NCBI GenBank assembly: GCA_902550325.1
Contig: CACCYT010000005.1
Span: forward strand, 1-45,510
Length of the DNA stretch: 45,510 bases
Reading direction: 5' to 3'
From: an uncultured Bacteroidota bacterium
Lineage (GTDB): Bacteria; Bacteroidota; Bacteroidia; Flavobacteriales; Flavobacteriaceae
Position numbers and translations under genes: made by a program. A model generated the notes under the pieces. That model made no database searches, was not told the origin of the DNA, and worked only from the letters and a program-made list of their open reading frames with translations. Of this stretch, positions 24,261 to 32,932 are shown in pieces. Numbering within the stretch: position 1 is the stretch's first letter; every line of letters starts with the position of its first letter.

Positions 24261-25175
24261 TCAATTATTTTTTAACTCAGATAAAAGTTCAAGATAATTT
24301 TGATATCTACTTTTTGGAATTAAACCTTTTTCAACTGCTAACTTTACATTACAGCCAGGTTCATCTTTATGTAAGCAGTCGTTATATTTACAATCATTAT
24401 AATTTAAAAATTCCATAAAACAATCTTTAAGTTGAGCTTCATCGAAATTATATAGTCCAAATCCTTTTATACCAGGTGTATCAATTATTTTAGATCCATT
24501 TTTCAAATCGAACATTTTAGAAAAAGTAGTGGTATGTTGACCCGTTAAATTTGAGCTTGAAATTGGAGCTGTTTTAATATTTAATGAACTATCTATTGAG
24601 TTTAAAAGAGTTGATTTTCCAGACCCACTATGACCATTAAATACGCAGGTTTTATTTTTCATTTCATTTTCTACATGATTAAGATTTAATAATTTTTTTC
24701 CAGAAATTTTAAAACATTTGTAGCCAATACTACTATATAAATCAAATAATTCATCTAATTCGATTCTTTCATCAGTATCAATATCATCAATTTTATTAAA
24801 CAATAAACATGTGTCGATATTATATGCAAAATTTGAGGCCAAAAATCTGTCAATAAACATTTTAGATGTTTGTGGTCTTGAAACTGTTATTATCAAAAAA
24901 CATAAATCAATATTTGAAGCTATTATTTGGTATTGTTTTGAGAGTTTAACTGATTTCCTTATGATATAATTTTTTCTAACATTGATAGCTTCAATAATGG
25001 GTGTTTTATTGTTATCAATTTTAACAGTTACATGATCACCAGTGCACACGGGGTTTGTTGATTTTGACTCAGAATTTCTAAGTTTTCCAGCCAGTTTACA
25101 TTCAATAAAATTATTTTGTTGATCTTTTACAATATACCAACTCCCTGTTGACTTGTAAACTATACCCTGCATCAA
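24261..25175 (-). CDS. rsgA: Ribosome small-subunit maturation GTPase RsgA
   Basis: Circularly permuted GTPase (YjeQ/EngC) that checks late 30S assembly. The 304-residue protein has an OB-fold N-terminus. The permuted G-motif order is NKID (G4, 127-130), then GHSGSGKST (G1, 181-189), then DTPGIKGFGL (G3). A C-terminal zinc site follows with the cysteines and histidine of CKYNDCLHKDEPGC. Two adjacent ATGs are possible starts; the first overlaps the stop of the DAHP synthase gene. Its place in an aromatic amino-acid operon links ribosome assembly to the same control. Confidence 0.97.
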   Translation of the reverse strand: MMQGIVYKSTGSWYIVKDQQNNFIECKLAGKLRNSESKSTNPVCTGDHVTVKIDNNKTPIIEAINVRKNYIIRKSVKLSKQYQIIASNIDLCFLIITVSRPQTSKMFIDRFLASNFAYNIDTCLLFNKIDDIDTDERIELDELFDLYSSIGYKCFKISGKKLLNLNHVENEMKNKTCVFNGHSGSGKSTLLNSIDSSLNIKTAPISSSNLTGQHTTTFSKMFDLKNGSKIIDTPGIKGFGLYNFDEAQLKDCFMEFLNYNDCKYNDCLHKDEPGCNVKLAVEKGLIPKSRYQNYLELLSELKNN

Positions 25176-26254
25176 TCTTTGAGAATTTTTTCTTGATGGT
25201 TTATTGATTCCTGATGTATAGCTTTAAATATTTTCAAAATAAAATCCTTACTTAGTCCTTTTCCTTTACCGTCCGATATCATTTTTTCTAAAATATCATT
25301 CCATCTAGCAGATTGTAAAATCGCAACATTTTGTTTTTTCTTGATTTTACCAATTTCTTCAGAAACCTTCATTCTATTTCCAATTATATCTAAAATTTGT
25401 GAATCCGCATTATCAATTTTAATTCTTAGGTTTTCTAATTCAGAAATAAAACTTCTTTCCTCTAAAGATTCCTTTCTGATTACTAAATTTTTCATCAGAT
25501 TTATTAACGTTTTTGGTGTTATTTGTTGTGCGGCATCACTCCAAGCATTATCTGGATCATTGTGAGTTTCAATCATTAAACCATCAAAGTTTAAATCCAG
25601 TGCTTTTTGTGAAGTCTGCTTAATAATATCTCTTCTTCCACAGATATGAGAGGGATCACATATCAAGGGTAAATCAGGAAATTTATTTTGTAATTCAATC
25701 GGAATTTGCCACTCAGGATTATTTCTAAATTTTGTCTTAGAATACGTAGAAAAACCACGGTGTATAACGCCTAATTTTTTGATATTAGCAGTATATAACC
25801 TTTCAATTCCTCCATACCATAATGATAGGTCAGGGTTGACGGGATTCTTCAAAAGAACAATTTTATCTGTATTTTTTAATGCATCAGCAATTTCCTGGAC
25901 TATGAATGGACTCACAGTTGATCTAGCACCAATCCATAAGACATCTATATCATGATCAAGAGCAATTTTAACATGATTTGCATTAGCAACCTCTGTGGTT
26001 ACTAGTAGCCCTGTTTCCTTTTTCACTTTTTGAAGCCATTTTAGACCGATTGATCCAACACCCTCAAAATTCCCCGGTCGTGTTCTAGGCTTCCATATAC
26101 CTGCTCTAAAAATTGAAACATCACTATTTTTAAGTTCATGAGCAATTCCCAATACCTGGGATTCTGTCTCTGCACTACAAGGTCCAGCAATCACTAATGG
26201 GTGATCAAGATCAAAATCATCTAACCAATTTCTGAGTTTCATATTATTATTCAT
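25172..26254 (-). CDS. Bifunctional DAHP synthase / chorismate mutase
   Basis: A 360-residue fusion. Residues 1 to about 260 are a type I-beta (KDO8P-synthase-like) 3-deoxy-7-phosphoheptulonate synthase with AGPCSAE (24-29), KPRTRPGNFEGVG, GARSTVSPF, LLKNPVNPDL and CDPSHICGRR. The C-terminal 90 residues are an AroQ-type chorismate mutase (LRIKIDNADSQILDIIGNRM, EEIGKIKKK). The fusion joins entry to the shikimate pathway with the branch to prephenate, and the mutase domain may act as the allosteric sensor, as known for related fusions. It starts one base after tyrA. Confidence 0.95.
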   Translation of the reverse strand: MNNNMKLRNWLDDFDLDHPLVIAGPCSAETESQVLGIAHELKNSDVSIFRAGIWKPRTRPGNFEGVGSIGLKWLQKVKKETGLLVTTEVANANHVKIALDHDIDVLWIGARSTVSPFIVQEIADALKNTDKIVLLKNPVNPDLSLWYGGIERLYTANIKKLGVIHRGFSTYSKTKFRNNPEWQIPIELQNKFPDLPLICDPSHICGRRDIIKQTSQKALDLNFDGLMIETHNDPDNAWSDAAQQITPKTLINLMKNLVIRKESLEERSFISELENLRIKIDNADSQILDIIGNRMKVSEEIGKIKKKQNVAILQSARWNDILEKMISDGKGKGLSKDFILKIFKAIHQESINHQEKILKD

Positions 26255-26255
26255 T

Positions 26256-27113
26256 TTATTTTATTTTAATTCCTGACAAAATTTCTCTAATTAAATTTAT
26301 TTTATTTAAGTCATCCAATAGGATGTCTTTTTGGTTATTATTTATTAAACTCTTTATTTCTTTCAAGTTATCAATATATTCATTCAATGCTTTAGTGATA
26401 TTTGATTTATTATCATTAAAAATTGAAGTCCAAGTCTCTGGTGAACTTTTTGCTAGTCTTACAGTTGATTCAAAACCACTTCCTGCTAAATCAAAAATAT
26501 TTTTTTTTAACGATTTTTTTCTAAGGACAGTTTTGGCTAACATAAAGGATGAAATATGAGACAAATGAGACAAATATGCAATATTTTTATCGTGATCTGA
26601 TGGATCCATTTTAATGATTTTCATTTTAAAACTTTTAAATAGTTTTAGGGCTTTTTCTAAAAGGTCTAATCGTGTTTTGTTTGATTCACAAATTATGTTT
26701 ATGGAATTAAAATACAGACCCGAGACAGCAGACATAGGACCACTATTTTCGGTGCCAGTAATTGGGTGTGTAGCTAAAAACTGATCTCTTCTTGGATGAT
26801 TTTTCAAAGAGTCACATATACTTTTCTTCGTCGATCCTAGATCAATTACTAATGTGTTTTTTGAAATATGGTTTAAATATTTTTTTACAATATTAGAAAT
26901 ATAATGGACAGGTACTGAAATAATAAGAAAATCTAGGTGTCTACAATTTTCATCCGACAGTAATTCATCTACTATTTTATTTTTAATAGAATAATCTAAA
27001 CTTTTTTGATCGTTGTCGAAACCGTAAATTTTTGAATTTTTATTTTTGGAACGAAAGTCAAGGGCAAAAGAACCCCCCATTAAACCAATACCAATTATAC
27101 CAATTTTCATCAT
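26256..27113 (-). CDS. tyrA: Prephenate dehydrogenase
   Basis: Oxidatively decarboxylates prephenate to 4-hydroxyphenylpyruvate on the way to tyrosine. The 285-residue protein opens with the dinucleotide loop GIIGIGLMGGSFAL. It has the catalytic-region motif ATHPITGTENSGP and SHLSHISSFMLA. There is no fused chorismate mutase or ACT domain, so feedback control probably sits elsewhere. Two ATGs in a row are possible starts; the first overlaps the aminotransferase stop by four bases. Confidence 0.94.
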   Translation of the reverse strand: MMKIGIIGIGLMGGSFALDFRSKNKNSKIYGFDNDQKSLDYSIKNKIVDELLSDENCRHLDFLIISVPVHYISNIVKKYLNHISKNTLVIDLGSTKKSICDSLKNHPRRDQFLATHPITGTENSGPMSAVSGLYFNSINIICESNKTRLDLLEKALKLFKSFKMKIIKMDPSDHDKNIAYLSHLSHISSFMLAKTVLRKKSLKKNIFDLAGSGFESTVRLAKSSPETWTSIFNDNKSNITKALNEYIDNLKEIKSLINNNQKDILLDDLNKINLIREILSGIKIK

Positions 27114-28255
27114 AATTTCATTAAAGCTTCATTTAATTTTTCATGGCTCAAACAAAGTGATAATCTAACATAGCCCTCCCCATTACTTCCGAATATTGAA
27201 CCAGGCGTAATGAAAATATCTTTGGTATGTAGTAAATTATTAACAAAATCTATAGATGAAATATTTGAATTTTTGATTTTTGCCCAAACAAACATTCCTG
27301 TTGAATTTTTATCATAAGTCAAATTTAGTTTTTTGCAAATATTGTAAACAATTTCTCTTCTTTTAGCATAAGTTTGATTTGAAGATTCATACCATGAACT
27401 ATCAATAGATAATGCCTCAATTGCACCTTTTTGAATACCGTAGTACATCCCAGAATCAATATTAGACTTAACTTTTAAAATAGTATCAATATTATTTTTG
27501 GAGCCATTAACCATACCGACTCTCCAACCTGCCATGTTGTGGGATTTACTTAATGAGTTTAGTTCCAAACAATGCTCAAAGCTGCTATCGACAGACAAAA
27601 AGCTCAGTGGATTTTCGTTTAAAATAAAACTATAAGGGTTATCATTGATTACAAGTATATTATTTGAAATTGCGAATTCATATATTTTTTTAAAAAATTT
27701 GATATTAGCATTTTTACCAGTTGGCATATTTGGGTAGTTAATCCACATCAATTTTAAATCATCAGAAATGAGTTTTTTGAGAGAATTTAAATCTGGCATC
27801 CAATTATTTTTTTCAATAAGGGGGTAGAGAATAGGTTCTGCACCCACTAATTCTGTAATTGATTTATAACTAGGGTAACCTGGATTTGGAATTAAAACTT
27901 TATCACCTTTATTTAGAAATGCTAATGAAATATGCATAATTCCCTCCTTCGAACCAATTAAGGGCAAGATGTTTTCATTGGGATCTAAAACTATATTATA
28001 TTTTTTTTTATAAAAGTCTGATATACTAACCCTTAATTCGGAGATACCCTTGTAAGGTTGGTACTTATGTGAACTATCATCTTTAATAGCTATTTTCAAT
28101 GCTTTATTTACATTTTCAGGTGGTGACATATCAGGATTACCGATTCCCATATTAATAATATTCTTACCTTGTTTATTAAGTTCATTAATCTCCCTCAGCT
28201 TTGTTGAAAAATAATATTCTTTAATGTGATTCAATCTTTCTGCAGGTTCAATCAT
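27110..28255 (-). CDS. PLP-dependent aminotransferase, class I/II (probable aromatic)
   Basis: Fold-type I aminotransferase of 381 residues. The PLP lysine is Lys237 in SLSKSHNMAGWRVG; NYPNMPTGK (about 173-181), NDNPYSF and the late arginine region YVRLSLCLS are the other landmarks. Enclosed by pheA and tyrA, it most likely transaminates phenylpyruvate and 4-hydroxyphenylpyruvate (or prephenate) to finish Phe and Tyr synthesis. Closely related LL-DAP or aspartate aminotransferases cannot be excluded from sequence alone. It overlaps both neighbours by four bases. Confidence 0.9.
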   Translation of the reverse strand: MIEPAERLNHIKEYYFSTKLREINELNKQGKNIINMGIGNPDMSPPENVNKALKIAIKDDSSHKYQPYKGISELRVSISDFYKKKYNIVLDPNENILPLIGSKEGIMHISLAFLNKGDKVLIPNPGYPSYKSITELVGAEPILYPLIEKNNWMPDLNSLKKLISDDLKLMWINYPNMPTGKNANIKFFKKIYEFAISNNILVINDNPYSFILNENPLSFLSVDSSFEHCLELNSLSKSHNMAGWRVGMVNGSKNNIDTILKVKSNIDSGMYYGIQKGAIEALSIDSSWYESSNQTYAKRREIVYNICKKLNLTYDKNSTGMFVWAKIKNSNISSIDFVNNLLHTKDIFITPGSIFGSNGEGYVRLSLCLSHEKLNEALMKL

Positions 28256-29070
28256 TTTTTAAAATTATTATATATACCAAATTCTTTAAGTTCTTCTGAA
28301 ACAGATTTTAAGTCATTGAAACATTTTTTATAGTTCTTCAAACTTCGGAATGTTAAATCAACAAAAAATGAATATTTCCAGGGTGATTCAATAATTGGAA
28401 TACTTTGGATTTTAGTGAGATTTATTTCATAATCTGAAATTATATTTAAAACATTTGCAAGGCTTCCATTTCTATGACTTAAAACAAATTTTATAGATGC
28501 CTTATTAGCTTTTTCTTTAGTTTTTTGATCAACTTTTTTTGATATTATTACAAAACGAGTTTGATTATAATCAACAGATTGTATGTTTTCCGCCAATAAA
28601 TTTAGTCCATAAATCTTTGATGCACTAATACTTGCAATTGCGGCTACATTCTTTAATTTTTTTTCTGAAATCAATTTTGCTACATGAGCAGTATCGACAT
28701 CCTCGATTATGGTTTTATTAGTTTTTTTTAGGTAATCCTTACACTGCAAAAGTGCCATCGGGTGAGATGATATTTTTTCAATATCAGATATTTTAACTCC
28801 CTTGTAGGCTAACAAGTTGTGATTAATATTTATGTAATACTCACCAATTATTTTTAAATTAAGCTTATCAATTATTGAATAGTTTGGTATTATAGAGCCC
28901 GCGATTGAGTTTTCTATTGCCATAATCCCCACCTGGGCTTCGGAGCTCGATATGCTTTCTGCCACTTTATCAAATGATAAACATTCTAAAACACTGACTT
29001 CCTCACCATATAATGCACAAGCGACATCGTGATGATATGAGCCTTTGATACCTTGTATTGATACTAACAT
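28252..29070 (-). CDS. pheA: Prephenate dehydratase
   Basis: Converts prephenate to phenylpyruvate. The start is taken as the ATG at 29070 (272 residues, beginning MLVSIQGIKGSYHHDVA), five bases after a ten-T terminator tail; a TTG six bases upstream is less likely. The catalytic domain has the TRF motif in NQTRFVIIS and the AIENS segment (GIMAIENSIAGS). A C-terminal ACT domain starts near NGSLANVLNII, but the usual Phe-binding motifs GALV and ESRP read GSLA and QSIP, so Phe feedback may be altered. It is the first structural gene of the aromatic operon and sits directly behind an attenuator. Confidence 0.95.
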   Translation of the reverse strand: MLVSIQGIKGSYHHDVACALYGEEVSVLECLSFDKVAESISSSEAQVGIMAIENSIAGSIIPNYSIIDKLNLKIIGEYYININHNLLAYKGVKISDIEKISSHPMALLQCKDYLKKTNKTIIEDVDTAHVAKLISEKKLKNVAAIASISASKIYGLNLLAENIQSVDYNQTRFVIISKKVDQKTKEKANKASIKFVLSHRNGSLANVLNIISDYEINLTKIQSIPIIESPWKYSFFVDLTFRSLKNYKKCFNDLKSVSEELKEFGIYNNFKK

Positions 29071-29074
29071 AATC

Positions 29075-29104
29075 AAAAAAAAAAGTCCTGATTAACAGGA
29101 CTCC
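29075..29104 (-). terminator. Intrinsic terminator/attenuator in front of pheA
   Basis: On the minus strand a perfect 7-base-pair stem AGTCCTG/CAGGACT (29102-29096 and 29090-29084) with a five-base loop runs into ten T residues (29084-29075). Two G-U pairs could lengthen the stem. It ends only five bases before the pheA ATG, so transcription must pass it to express the operon. It can also stop transcripts arriving from the receptor gene at 29257-32013, the only gene upstream. Confidence 0.9.
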
Positions 29105-29141
29105 TTGTTTAAATTTTAAGATTTACTAACAAAAAATCCTA
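29096..29141 (-). promoter_or_regulatory. Candidate antiterminator pairing
   Basis: The segment TAGGATTTT (29141-29133) can pair over nine positions, five Watson-Crick and four G-U or U-G, with GGAGTCCTG (29104-29096), which is the 5' arm of the terminator. The two structures exclude each other. The upstream segment lies over leader codons 20-23, just beyond the cluster of Phe/Tyr codons. A ribosome stalled in that cluster would leave it free, whereas one that reaches the stop codon would cover it. The pairing was found by eye and is not energy-tested. Confidence 0.6.
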
Positions 29142-29200
29142 TTCTTATACTGGTAGTAAAAGAAATAAACTGAATTTTTATTGTAAAAATATTTTAACAT
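29126..29200 (-). CDS. Tyr/Phe-rich leader peptide of the aromatic operon
   Basis: A 24-codon frame from ATG (29200) to TAG (29128-29126), with a second stop right after. Ten of 24 residues are aromatic: six Tyr and four Phe. They occur in two runs, YFY at residues 4-6 and YFFYYQY at 12-18. The frame ends 22 bases before the terminator stem. Size, codon bias and position are those of an attenuation leader such as E. coli PheL, though no sequence similarity is claimed. It would sense charged tRNA-Tyr and tRNA-Phe. No Shine-Dalgarno is visible, as elsewhere in the window. Confidence 0.8.
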   Translation of the reverse strand: MLKYFYNKNSVYFFYYQYKNRIFC

Positions 29201-29205
29201 TATTT

Positions 29206-29240
29206 CAAATGTAATACAGTATTTAGTTATCTCAAAATTA
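29206..29240 (-). promoter_or_regulatory. Promoter of the leader-pheA operon
   Basis: The minus strand carries TACATTTG (29213-29206), a full match to the Bacteroidota -7 box TAnnTTTG, preceded by TTTG (29236-29233) at a spacing of 19 bases, within the usual -33/-7 range. This promoter would start transcription at or next to the leader ATG (29200). The upstream element is itself part of TAATTTTG (29240-29233), another TAnnTTTG match, which would give a leader of roughly 30 bases. The sequence does not decide between them. Confidence 0.6.
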
Positions 29241-29256
29241 ATTAACTAAAATATTG

Positions 29257-32013
29257 TTACTTAAGTCGTCCACCTCCAGAATTACCTCTCCTGTTCCTGT
29301 TCTGATTTGCATCATTCTTTTTCTCTTTTCCCCCAAAGAGTGTCAAATCATATTTCAACTTAAAAAGAATATATCTAGGCTGGATGATATAGCTTCTAGT
29401 TTGTGTGAAAAACTGGTTAAATGAATCTCTGTTAGTAGATGTATCATTTAACAAGTTAGAGACACCAACTGAATACTCCCATTTTGAGCCTTCCTTGTTG
29501 TAAGAAATATCTGCATCAAGAAACCTAAAATAATTTAATACTTGGTCTTGATTTTTATACTTATTATAACTGTACTCAGCAGTAAAAACAAATCCTTTTC
29601 CAAAATACGCATCAGTTCTGATAAATGGTGTTTCTCTTACAAATTTGTTCTCAATATTTGCGTTCTTGTAGTTATTAAGGTTGTATTTTAACCCGATCTC
29701 AAAGTTTGGCTTATCTCTAAAGTTAGTCTCTAGGCTTGCTTCATAATCTTGATTAAAGCTCTCAGCATTGTTGACCACATCATTAATTATGTTAGAGAAC
29801 TCACTATATCTAACATTGGCACTCAAATTTATTTTGATGTTTTTAAACCTTTTATCTAATCTGGCCCTTGCGGAATAAGTTTCCCTAGGAAATATTGAAT
29901 TGTCCGCTGTTCTAACTGAGTTAATGCCATCTATTGCAGCTCGAGATTGAATAGAGTTTTCTCTTTTGGAATAGGATATATTGGAGAAGATATTTGTAAA
30001 AGTAAATTGATTAATACTTCTATAATTCAAATTATATGAATTTACGATTGCCGCTTCCAACTGTCTATTTCCTCTAAATATGCTGTTATAATTATTAAAA
30101 ACATAACCCTCCGAAATATTATTAACGTCAGTGAATTGAGTATTTTTTCTATATGTAAACCTTAAATTTTCATTCTTCTTGAACTGCATATTAACTCTTA
30201 GGTTTGGTCTTATGTCAGAAATGTCTTTTGAATATGTTTGGCCTAGTTGGGTGTTGTTGTTATCATAAAAATGAAGTGTCAAACCTGGGTCAATTGTAAA
30301 TATCCCAGTTCTAATTCTGTAATTGAGGGCAAAATATAAGTCCTTGAAGCTAAAATCTACATCATTATTAAACTGATCATCATCAAAAAGCTTTCTTCTA
30401 CCGTCATCTAAAATCTGGTTAAAGTTTGAGAAGTAATTTTGATCAACATTGGTGAAACCAATGCTTAGGTTAAGATTTGATTGATCATTAATTAAATAAA
30501 AATAGTCAAGCTTGGCCTCAAGTTTTTGTGTTTCAATAAATCTGTATTGAGCAATATCAAATCTCTGAACATTGGAGTCAAAAGGGATTAATGATAAGAA
30601 TGGGTTCCTGTCCCTCACAGCTCTGCCAATAGGATCTTCGGTTTGGTCCAAATGCTGTGCTTCGAACGAAAATATGTGATTATCATTATGGGTGTAGTAA
30701 ACTTTTAGTTCCTGGTTCAAAGCATTAGGAGTTTGAGTTCTTGTTAAATCAAGGTTTTCCTCAACCCTATTATTCAATCTTCCATAAATTGAAGTCAAAT
30801 CATTAACTTCTGATTGGTCCGAGCTGTTATACAATATATTGTATTCCAACTGAAAAATTTCGTTTGGTTCGTACTCAAGACTAAACTTGTAAAGTTCGAG
30901 TGTACTCTTTTGAAGGGAATATTCTCTGGTATTTTCTTCAACCTCAGTAGCATTATAAGTTCTTTTGATTTGTTCCTCAATATCATTAGTGACTGTTGTA
31001 AAAACACTAAATCCAGAAATTTCAAGCCCCTTATCATTATTGACAGAAAAATTGGCTGCGCCAAACTCAGATTCGATTAATTTAGCCCTGTTATTTTGTA
31101 GACTTCCGATTCCTGCTAAATCTGAACTGATATTGATTGATGTTCCAGCTCTGGAGTTAAGATTATTAAATCCACCCGAAAACCTGTAAAAATCTCGTCT
31201 GCTTAAAGCTGGAGACCCTACATCATTTGAATTACCGAGGACACTAAAATTAAATTTTTTATCATAGTAAAATATTTTTGGGGCAATCAAATGGATATCA
31301 TCTGGTCCTGTTCCAGCTAAAATCTCTCCAAACCAAAACTTATCTTTTCCATCCTTGAGTCTGATATTAATAGCGAAATTATCTTCATTATTTTGAACAT
31401 TTCTTAATTGTCCTACCTCGGTAAAATTTCTTAGTACTTCAACTTTTCCAACTGCCTTAGCTGGTAAATTTTGAGCAGCTAGTTTTGTATCACCATCAAA
31501 AAAATCTTTACCCTCTATTTGAATTTTTTTTACCTCTTGACCCTCCACCTCTATTCTTCCATCTTCATTAACTTCTATACCCGGCATGTTTGCTAATACA
31601 TCGGATAATTTTTTTTCAGTTCCTGTATTAAATGCATCAGCGCTGTATACGATCGTATCTCCTTTGATTTCCACAGGCATTTCATAAACCAATTCAACCT
31701 CATCCAATGCCTCAGCTTGTTCTTCTAAAACAAAATCTCTAATTAAATCCTCACTTAGTGAAATATTAAATTCAATTGGTTTATAACCAATAAATGTGAT
31801 TTTAATATTAAACTCAGTATCTTTTTTTAAGTTCAAACTGAAATACCCATTTTCATTTGATATGCCAAATCCGTCTAAAATTTGAGTTTCATTGTTAACA
31901 GCTATTATGTTAGCTCCCATTATTGAATATCCGGTCTGATCTTTAATTTCTCCGCTTAAGTTGACCTGACTAAATAAAAAAACAGGAAAAATTAAAAAGA
32001 ATAAATATCTCAT
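29257..32013 (-). CDS. Outer-membrane beta-barrel receptor with CarboxypepD-regulatory domain
   Basis: A 918-residue TonB-receptor-like protein. A signal peptide (about residues 1-15, LIFPVFLFSQ) leads into a carboxypeptidase-regulatory-like beta-sandwich (16-95: VNLSGEIKDQTGYSIMGANI). A plug-like domain follows (about 115-210, with LSDVLANMPGIEV and KIQIEGKDFFDGD), then a long 'outer membrane beta-barrel family' region. The final strand (YILFKLKYDLTLFGG) is followed by an unusual Lys/Asn/Arg/Gly-rich tail of about 25 residues. It directly follows the GLPGLI gene with no gap, a common pairing in Flavobacteriia. The substrate is unknown; uptake or protein/peptide binding is possible. Confidence 0.88.
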   Translation of the reverse strand: MRYLFFLIFPVFLFSQVNLSGEIKDQTGYSIMGANIIAVNNETQILDGFGISNENGYFSLNLKKDTEFNIKITFIGYKPIEFNISLSEDLIRDFVLEEQAEALDEVELVYEMPVEIKGDTIVYSADAFNTGTEKKLSDVLANMPGIEVNEDGRIEVEGQEVKKIQIEGKDFFDGDTKLAAQNLPAKAVGKVEVLRNFTEVGQLRNVQNNEDNFAINIRLKDGKDKFWFGEILAGTGPDDIHLIAPKIFYYDKKFNFSVLGNSNDVGSPALSRRDFYRFSGGFNNLNSRAGTSINISSDLAGIGSLQNNRAKLIESEFGAANFSVNNDKGLEISGFSVFTTVTNDIEEQIKRTYNATEVEENTREYSLQKSTLELYKFSLEYEPNEIFQLEYNILYNSSDQSEVNDLTSIYGRLNNRVEENLDLTRTQTPNALNQELKVYYTHNDNHIFSFEAQHLDQTEDPIGRAVRDRNPFLSLIPFDSNVQRFDIAQYRFIETQKLEAKLDYFYLINDQSNLNLSIGFTNVDQNYFSNFNQILDDGRRKLFDDDQFNNDVDFSFKDLYFALNYRIRTGIFTIDPGLTLHFYDNNNTQLGQTYSKDISDIRPNLRVNMQFKKNENLRFTYRKNTQFTDVNNISEGYVFNNYNSIFRGNRQLEAAIVNSYNLNYRSINQFTFTNIFSNISYSKRENSIQSRAAIDGINSVRTADNSIFPRETYSARARLDKRFKNIKINLSANVRYSEFSNIINDVVNNAESFNQDYEASLETNFRDKPNFEIGLKYNLNNYKNANIENKFVRETPFIRTDAYFGKGFVFTAEYSYNKYKNQDQVLNYFRFLDADISYNKEGSKWEYSVGVSNLLNDTSTNRDSFNQFFTQTRSYIIQPRYILFKLKYDLTLFGGKEKKNDANQNRNRRGNSGGGRLK

Positions 32014-32844
32014 CTAGCGAAGTCTTGCTGTTGAAGATTGTCTTTTCTGCCTTGCTTTTCTCCACATCTCTAATGATTCAGCTCTTTTTTCATCTTGCAG
32101 AGTAACAAAATCTTGATTTGAGATAGTTTTGCCTTTTTTTGGTCTCTTTATCTTTGTTTTTTCTTTGGGGTTCATTACAATTTTTGTACAAAGGATTGTT
32201 GTTTTATCATCACTAACCTCCAAAATAAGTCCTGGTAAACCTTGATACCAAGAGGGTCCGCTAGAGACAGGTATTTCAGGAGTGAACCAAGCAACAACTT
32301 CAACATCTCTCATTTTTTTTGGTTTCTTGTTCTGACTGGTTTGATTATTTTGATTCCAACTACCAAATGAGAATACTTTTTCCTCTACTTTCTTTGAGTA
32401 TGTAGCTTTGTAACAAGTATATTGTCCAATCTTTTTTGATTCGCCTGACATTTTCCATTTTGTATTTTCAAGGTCTTCGGTTACCAAAAAGAATTTACCC
32501 ATCATTTCTGTTTCATTTATGGAAATTTTATCTTGTGCATTTTTATAAATTTTTCCAATATTTTCACCCACATAATTTGCCATCCAATTAAAACCTTGAC
32601 CCTCAGTTTCTAATTTTTCAATTTCTTTGTATGTAGACTCTATCGAATTAAATTCCAATACGTAATCTTTTTCAGTATTTCTTTTAATCATATCATTCAT
32701 GTAACCTTTTCTCGATGCATATCTTGGGTTGTCCATCCAAGATTTGTCAACAGATATTTTTGACATGTAGTATGCTTTTCCTTGAAAATCTTGTGAAAAG
32801 CACATGATTGGAATTAATAATATTATAGACAGGAGATTTTTCAT
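32014..32844 (-). CDS. GLPGLI family secreted protein
   Basis: A 276-residue exported protein of unknown function, named for the motif GLPGLILEV, seen here in WYQGLPGLILEVSDD. The start is the ATG at 32844, which gives a clear signal peptide (MKNLLSIILLIPIMCFSQ). An upstream start at 32901 would add 19 residues before it and would overlap the promoter. The body is beta-rich (KAYYMSKISVD, KKIGQYTCYKATYSKKV, EVVAWFTPEIPVSSGPSW). The C-terminus is very basic (about 12 Arg/Lys in the last 35 residues). It is coupled to the receptor gene and probably works with it at the outer membrane. Confidence 0.92.
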   Translation of the reverse strand: MKNLLSIILLIPIMCFSQDFQGKAYYMSKISVDKSWMDNPRYASRKGYMNDMIKRNTEKDYVLEFNSIESTYKEIEKLETEGQGFNWMANYVGENIGKIYKNAQDKISINETEMMGKFFLVTEDLENTKWKMSGESKKIGQYTCYKATYSKKVEEKVFSFGSWNQNNQTSQNKKPKKMRDVEVVAWFTPEIPVSSGPSWYQGLPGLILEVSDDKTTILCTKIVMNPKEKTKIKRPKKGKTISNQDFVTLQDEKRAESLEMWRKARQKRQSSTARLR

Positions 32845-32898
32845 ATTTCTTGTTATTAGTTGTAAGACTGAAAAAAGTTTAAAAAGTTTAAAATTTTT

Positions 32899-32932
32899 CA
32901 AATTTATATTTTACATTTATTAATAATCAAAA
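32899..32932 (-). promoter_or_regulatory. Candidate promoter for the GLPGLI-receptor pair
   Basis: On the minus strand TTTTG (32932-32928) and TAAATTTG (32906-32899, a full TAnnTTTG match) are 21 bases apart. Transcription would begin near 32895 and leave about 50 untranslated bases before the ATG at 32844. The promoter ends just before the divergent kinase gene begins at 32936, so the intergenic space is shared. Confidence 0.6.

Follow-up and report, generated by a model that had tools for sequence, protein, structure and literature searches.

The enterobacterial pheA leader (pheL) places a leader peptide, a terminator and a competing antiterminator before pheA, and in E. coli this leader is rich in Phe codons and lacks Tyr. 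The multivalent ilv-type attenuators and the his and trp attenuators of proteobacteria carry codons for the products of their pathway in one leader, and a stalled ribosome frees the antiterminator. Lopatovskaya et al. 2010 (doi 10.1134/S0026893310010164) may hold earlier predictions. The best-documented examples of leader-peptide attenuation are those of proteobacteria and Actinobacteria (passages of PMC4833913). In the Bacteroides thetaiotaomicron transcriptome, small open reading frames (ORFs) in long 5' UTRs recall attenuation leaders (passages of PMC7366714). Furthermore, main-text passages of Guerin et al. 2021 (PMC9723704) report clues to leader-peptide attenuation of amino-acid operons in Flavobacterium psychrophilum, together with a 5' element of pheA that is conserved in other Flavobacteriaceae genera and has no Rfam hit.

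Here we describe a leader upstream of pheA in a stretch of 45,510 nucleotides (the window) from an uncultured member of the Flavobacteriaceae. It resembles pheL (Rfam RF01859) in having a leader peptide, a terminator and an antiterminator upstream of pheA. It differs in that the leaders described here mix Phe and Tyr codons (204 of 205) and in that the operon behind them also makes Tyr and starts the shikimate pathway. As in the ilv, his and trp systems, the leader codons correspond to pathway products and a stalled ribosome would free the antiterminator, but the competition here is between two states, with the 1:2 pause hairpin unsupported. We interpret the element as a ribosome-mediated transcription attenuator that senses the charging of tRNA-Phe and tRNA-Tyr and controls pheA, an aminotransferase gene, tyrA and a DAHP synthase/chorismate mutase gene, a reading to which we assign a probability of roughly 0.92. 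Direct support comes from the parts themselves, their conservation, the covariation of the competing helices, the constraint on aromatic codons and the in silico geometry.

The element is probably the same as the pheA 5' element of Guerin et al. 2021, whose main-text passages describe no peptide, antiterminator, covariation or reach beyond the family (PMC9723704). The novelty claimed in the preliminary description of this DNA, which knew of no such aromatic-operon case in Bacteroidota, was thus overstated, given the attenuation clues and the conserved pheA element in those passages. What the present analysis adds to them is the anatomy, the covariation, the mixed Phe/Tyr code and the range beyond the family, for an element that was partly anticipated. 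Our literature search, which covered neither most subscription papers nor the supplement of PMC9723704, returned no description of the leader anatomy, covariation, dual specificity or wider range. Six Bacteroidetes and Phe terms are absent from the consulted text of a premature-terminator survey (PMC2965389).

Architecture of the leader and the operon

The leader locus is bounded by an outer-membrane protein gene, which ends at 29257 on the minus strand, and by pheA. Between them, predicted promoter, leader ORF, hairpin, T tract and pheA ATG follow in this order.

29206-29236, minus strand: predicted Bacteroidota-type promoter (TTTG at 29236-29233, 19 nt spacer, TACATTTG at 29213-29206)
29126-29200, minus strand: leader peptide ORF MLKYFYNKNSVYFFYYQYKNRIFC, 24 codons and a stop codon (29128-29126), with an aromatic leader at the equivalent site in 209 distinct upstream regions
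29147-29170, minus strand: putative control codons, V followed by the YFFYYQY cluster, residues 11-18, marked by the retention of F/Y in related leaders
29131-29143, minus strand: leader tail, predicted 5' strand of the antiterminator, pairing with 29106-29094 (duplex energy, swap test, covariation)
29080-29106, minus strand: intrinsic terminator, an 11-pair hairpin of -12.9 kcal/mol with a TTAAT loop
29075-29084, minus strand: terminator T tract of ten T

The sequence bears out most of the anatomy in the preliminary description. It had pointed to a 24-codon frame at 29200-29126 (minus) with ten F/Y codons, including YFFYYQY at residues 12-18, followed by a perfect 7-bp hairpin and ten T before pheA, all of which are present. 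The hairpin core, AGTCCTG-TTAAT-CAGGACT, occupies 29102-29084 and lies within a longer stem of 11 pairs, including two G-T pairs, at 29106-29080. The distance from the T run to the pheA ATG (29070-29068) is four bases, not the five originally given. The pairing proposed between 29141-29133 and the 5' arm of the terminator falls inside a longer paired segment, in which 29143-29131 and 29106-29094 form 13 pairs at -13.1 kcal/mol.

The genes behind the leader were identified by their protein families:

28252-29070, minus strand: pheA, prephenate dehydratase with an ACT domain, the first regulated gene (PF00800, PF01842)
27110-28255, minus strand: class I/II aminotransferase (PF00155)
26256-27113, minus strand: tyrA, prephenate dehydrogenase (PF02153, PF20463; NF006307 above cut-off)
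25172-26254, minus strand: DAHP synthase fused to chorismate mutase (PF00793, PF01817)

These Pfam identities point to an operon for the synthesis of Phe and Tyr that also provides the entry step of the shikimate pathway. Together with the presence of both residues in nearly all leaders, they agree with the original remark that a leader holding both Tyr and Phe codons matches an operon making both. The four genes stand in identical order at 77 of 80 Flavobacteriaceae loci; at the remaining three, L059, L066 and L069, the sequence covers 2031, 1195 and 2430 bases, respectively, counted from the start of pheA, which is not enough for four genes. rsgA, a D-aminoacyl-tRNA deacylase gene, a MazG-like gene and aroA come next on the same strand (Pfam, NCBIfam). 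Upstream of the leader, a GLPGLI family gene and a large gene run in one direction (29257-32901, minus); the large gene (29257-32013) has a CarboxypepD-like domain and a match to an outer-membrane beta-barrel below threshold.

Promoter and proposed mode of control

TTTG around -33 is part of the Bacteroidota promoter consensus, and Bacteroidetes ribosomes reportedly sequester their anti-Shine-Dalgarno sequence. In the window, only 5 nt separate the end of the predicted -7-like box TACATTTG from the leader ATG, which predicts a nearly absent 5' UTR for the leader mRNA. A box of this kind, preceded by a TTG, lies at most 45 nt from the leader ATG in 150 of 205 leaders, compared to 9 of 199 control windows. 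In the 150, box and ATG are a median of 17 nt apart; in 13 of the 14 own-genus leaders listed, the spacing is 4-7 nt. Passages of PMC9723704 give TAnnTTTG as the flavobacterial promoter consensus and describe flavobacteria as lacking Shine-Dalgarno sequences. This lack, together with a predicted promoter so close to the leader ATG in the genus, sets the element apart from the ilv, his and trp attenuators.

With transcription predicted to start close to the leader ATG, the ribosome would trail RNA polymerase through the leader. Once Phe-tRNA or Tyr-tRNA is scarce, the ribosome would stall in the YFFYYQY cluster, leaving the leader tail (29143-29131) free to pair with the terminator 5' arm (29106-29094). 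The antiterminator thus formed would preclude the terminator, and the four operon genes, from pheA through to the DAHP synthase/chorismate mutase gene, would be transcribed. When both charged tRNAs are plentiful, a ribosome at the stop codon (29128-29126) would cover the antiterminator strand, the terminator (29106-29080) would form and transcription would end within the T tract, immediately ahead of the pheA ATG. We infer that the leader is translated, that transcripts terminate in vivo and that the switch responds to tRNA charging. The logic of ribosome-mediated attenuation, proposed when the locus was first described, finds support in the conserved frame, the covarying helices and the genes for both amino acids. 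The element very probably lets these bacteria turn on their Phe/Tyr genes when ribosomes run short of Phe or Tyr, judging by its sequence and that of its relatives.

A translated leader with stalling ribosomes could also act mainly on the initiation of pheA translation or on mRNA stability and not on termination. The T tract of the window ends 4 bases before the pheA ATG, and the hairpin could hinder initiation as well. However, the hairpin carries a tract of ten T, and in a number of relatives (L064, L072 and L117, among others) it starts 60-140 bases before the start codon used, too distant to block initiation, which makes this alternative very unlikely.

Conservation of the leader across Bacteroidia

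Conservation of the leader before pheA was assessed with a strict detector, which requires an ORF that starts with ATG, spans 10-45 codons and has five or more F/Y within eight codons, followed by a perfect hairpin and a T tract. It takes ATG starts and unbulged hairpins only; a relaxed version was run on strict negatives only, and some of these were also read individually by eye. The detector was applied to the best 80 pheA matches in Flavobacteriaceae and to by-genome sets from the genus, family, order, class and phylum; the samples are partial and the two kinds of set overlap, so that their counts are not additive. At the genus level, 18 of 19 matched genomes were examined, the nineteenth (G012) being a fragment at a contig end, and four others had no pheA match. 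In the family, 178 genomes matched, from which we took the loci obtained with the search, the following 20 matches and another 20 at the weak end of those listed, plus members found in the genus and phylum searches. In the class sample, only 33 of 119 genomes matched prephenate dehydratase, so statements on the class are limited to gene-bearing genomes; the matched class genomes G421, G449, G497 and G518 were left out of the counts.

ORF and terminator were found before pheA at all 80 Flavobacteriaceae loci, compared to none of 602 other ORFs of the same loci and none of 1045 dinucleotide shuffles of homologous upstream regions. The arrangement is not due to chance. By genome, it occurs in 18/18 members of the own genus examined and 91/94 other Flavobacteriaceae (109/112 together), in 6 of 10 other Flavobacteriales with one more under the relaxed detector, and in 21 of 40 other Bacteroidia with nine more. 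It thus precedes pheA in most related bacteria examined. Compared in this way, the upstream regions show what the preliminary description had suggested checking: the Tyr/Phe-rich frame is conserved, and the terminator covaries with the competing stem.

Within 400 bases of pheA the element is absent from 2 of the 94 other Flavobacteriaceae, 3 of the 10 other Flavobacteriales and 10 of the 40 other Bacteroidia. More specifically, among the strict negatives of the family, G193 has the ORF and a bulged hairpin seen by eye, while G035 and G172 have neither aromatic ORF nor hairpin; in the order, G040, G047 and G053 lack the element. Among Bacteroidia scored negative by the detector, G360 has a leader with a GTG start, VITNIKYNFYYYFYFYYIKAGRVVFAKI, and a terminator. 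In G314, G346 and G425, pheA stands directly behind aroA, so a leader would have to sit elsewhere. A terminator retained without an aromatic frame, which had been named as evidence against attenuation, was found convincingly once (G448, one of the ten negatives, where the hairpin is kept) and perhaps a second time (G430, one of the nine relaxed positives, with an unconvincing ORF).

Outside the class Bacteroidia, 12 of 16 examined genomes of the phylum, chosen from many more matches, lack the element. The four positives, G255 (L217), G304 (L203), G366 (L155) and G388 (L156), combine a Bacteroidia-like PheA with an aromatic leader, and the other 12 have neither. Among the 16, the PheA of these four is closest to that of the window (E 6e-55 to 5e-68, compared to 8e-48 or weaker), which suggests that operon and attenuator moved together in a possible horizontal transfer.

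Two further loci stood out. In L025 (G035), where the leader is missing, several near-identical repeats with GC-rich inverted repeats were seen by eye, as if replacing it. L081 (CALPLL020000010.1), titled as a Rhizobium sp. Q54 metagenome-assembled genome (MAG), has a pheA 52% identical to that of the window and a flavobacterial-type leader, and is probably a mislabelled or mixed MAG.

Selection on the aromatic reading frame

Codon changes were compared in 54 disjoint pairs of related leaders. Within the cluster, F/Y codons underwent 19 synonymous changes, 14 F-Y exchanges and 11 changes to or from another residue; outside it, the respective numbers were 4, 9 and 12. F/Y was thus retained in 33/44 changes in the cluster and 13/25 outside, relative to a neutral expectation of 22%. 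This pattern indicates that the leader frame is under selection as a coding frame.

Phe and Tyr substitute for each other readily in related leaders, and both residues are present in 204 of the 205 leaders of the window and its relatives, making up 23.6% (F) and 15.5% (Y) of residues. Because of this ready exchange and joint occurrence, the leader appears to sense both amino acids. Trp codons occur in 90/205 leaders but account for just 2.0% of residues. The mixed Phe/Tyr leader represents a simple case of one switch for two end products.

Covariation of the competing helices

The energy tests used 205 of the 209 distinct positives, omitting four that had unknown bases or a short or duplicate tail. 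For these 205 distinct leaders, the leader tail, defined as the stretch between the cluster's last aromatic codon and the terminator, was paired with the terminator 5' arm and loop. The mean antiterminator energy was -11.5 kcal/mol for cognate pairs, -7.7 kcal/mol with a tail swapped in from a lineage with a different arm, and -6.2 kcal/mol with shuffled tails. The cognate pair was better than its own swap median in 200/205 leaders, and equally good pairing was reached on average by 17.5% of swaps and 4.3% of shuffles.

In a table of the three strands, anchored for 195 of the 205 leaders (10 had no anchor), the leader strand and the terminator 3' arm both track the 5' arm. The arms GTCTCG, GTCCCG, GTCCTG and ATCCTG stand most often opposite the leader strands CGAGAC, CGGGAC, CAGGAT and AGGAT, respectively. 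Core position 4 is C-G in 124 and T-A in 65 of the 195, and core position 5 is C-G in 136 and T-A in 55; the table is built on the best duplex of each locus and is hence biased toward pairs, for which the swap test serves as the control. The pairing data indicate an antiterminator that excludes the terminator and is maintained by covariation.

These results also bear on the idea that the hairpin simply terminates the upstream outer-membrane protein gene (29257-32013), with the aromatic frame as an accident of AT-rich DNA. That gene has the same orientation, and its end lies some 150 bases upstream of the hairpin. Furthermore, when the intergenic region was shuffled with dinucleotides preserved, 146 of 20000 shuffles contained an ATG ORF at least as dense in aromatic codons as the leader, so that the ORF alone is weak evidence. 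However, leaders average 8.77 F/Y, compared to 3.64 in mononucleotide shuffles, ORF and terminator occur together at every pheA of the 80-locus set and at none of the 602 other genes, and covariation between leader tail and terminator arm would be needless for a plain terminator. An origin of the hairpin as an upstream terminator is therefore extremely improbable.

Geometry of the switch and in silico folding

The gap between the last aromatic codon of the cluster and the antiterminator has a median of 10 nt (5-95% range 3-16), roughly the stretch that a ribosome covers ahead of its A site. In the window, the antiterminator begins about 3 nt after Y18, at the low end of this range, and stalling would therefore have to act at residues 12-16.

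For folding, the RNA was taken up to the terminator loop and the leader was masked 3, 6, 9 or 12 nt past the last aromatic codon as a stand-in for the stalled ribosome. The antiterminator probability exceeded 0.5 in 202, 202, 201 and 170 of the 205 leaders, respectively. When the mask was extended to 9 nt beyond the stop codon, as for a ribosome at the stop, it exceeded 0.5 in 0/205. For the window, the probabilities were 0.997 (3 nt mask), 0.0004 (ribosome at stop) and 0.993 (no mask). The partial transcript of the window therefore already favors the antiterminator when no ribosome is present, a point against the attenuator reading; over all 205 leaders the unmasked mean was 0.54. The modelled spacing fits a stalled ribosome that frees the antiterminator strand and a ribosome at the stop codon that covers it.

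The data do not support conservation of a 1:2 pause hairpin like that of E. coli trp, with 58/205 leaders reaching the best 5% of shuffles. Pairing of the 1:2 type is present in the minimum-energy fold of the window itself, and over the 205 leaders it lies only slightly above shuffles.

Two competing helices alone would fit any antitermination switch, but it is barely credible here that something else than the ribosome makes the choice, be it an RNA-binding protein, a tRNA in the manner of T-boxes or an aromatic aptamer, as no Rfam family reaches its gathering threshold in 20 loci, the window has sub-threshold matches only, and the conserved feature is an aromatic frame with F/Y-keeping substitutions at a narrow range of distances from the antiterminator.

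Membership of the window in the Phe_leader family (RF01859) was rejected at 20.4 bits, compared to a gathering score of 55. Under a relaxed E-value, the window gave 11 sub-threshold Rfam matches, snoR66, RatA, FopS and Phe_leader among them, which we attribute to chance, barring the mechanistic likeness of Phe_leader.

A possible wider role in Bacteroidia

Covariation supports attenuation in many Bacteroidia families. On balance, we favor an ancestral attenuator of the aromatic operon in Bacteroidia, in which Phe and Tyr codons would be interchangeable, giving an 'any aromatic missing' gate. It would operate in the absence of Shine-Dalgarno loading, in many cases behind a very short 5' UTR, hence with tight coupling of ribosome and RNA polymerase, and would have undergone tandem doubling in one lineage. 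Because attenuation needs a ribosome that keeps pace with RNA polymerase, the element may serve as a natural reporter for transcription-translation coupling in Bacteroidota, to our knowledge an open question.

L210 (G310) and L212 (G398) carry two tandem aromatic leader ORFs within 400 bases upstream of pheA, in L210 MLQTRFFFGYYYFYAAA followed by MVPTQQVFFTYGYYFFYLKKPARCCQC. A T-tailed hairpin seemingly follows each ORF (one per locus by the relaxed scan, the others by eye), so that one genus in another family of Bacteroidia apparently has a double attenuator.

A similar arrangement was observed at hisG. In 14 relatives (L272-L285), an upstream short ORF with at least three His, such as MFFNHHHHFTTLLK, was present in 14/14, compared to 26 of 675 other ORFs. 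The strict scan found a terminator-like hairpin at 11 of the 14 loci, two of them far upstream of the chosen start. No hisG match was obtained in the genome of the window itself. In those relatives the his operon seems to be attenuated likewise, in line with the main-text passages of PMC9723704.
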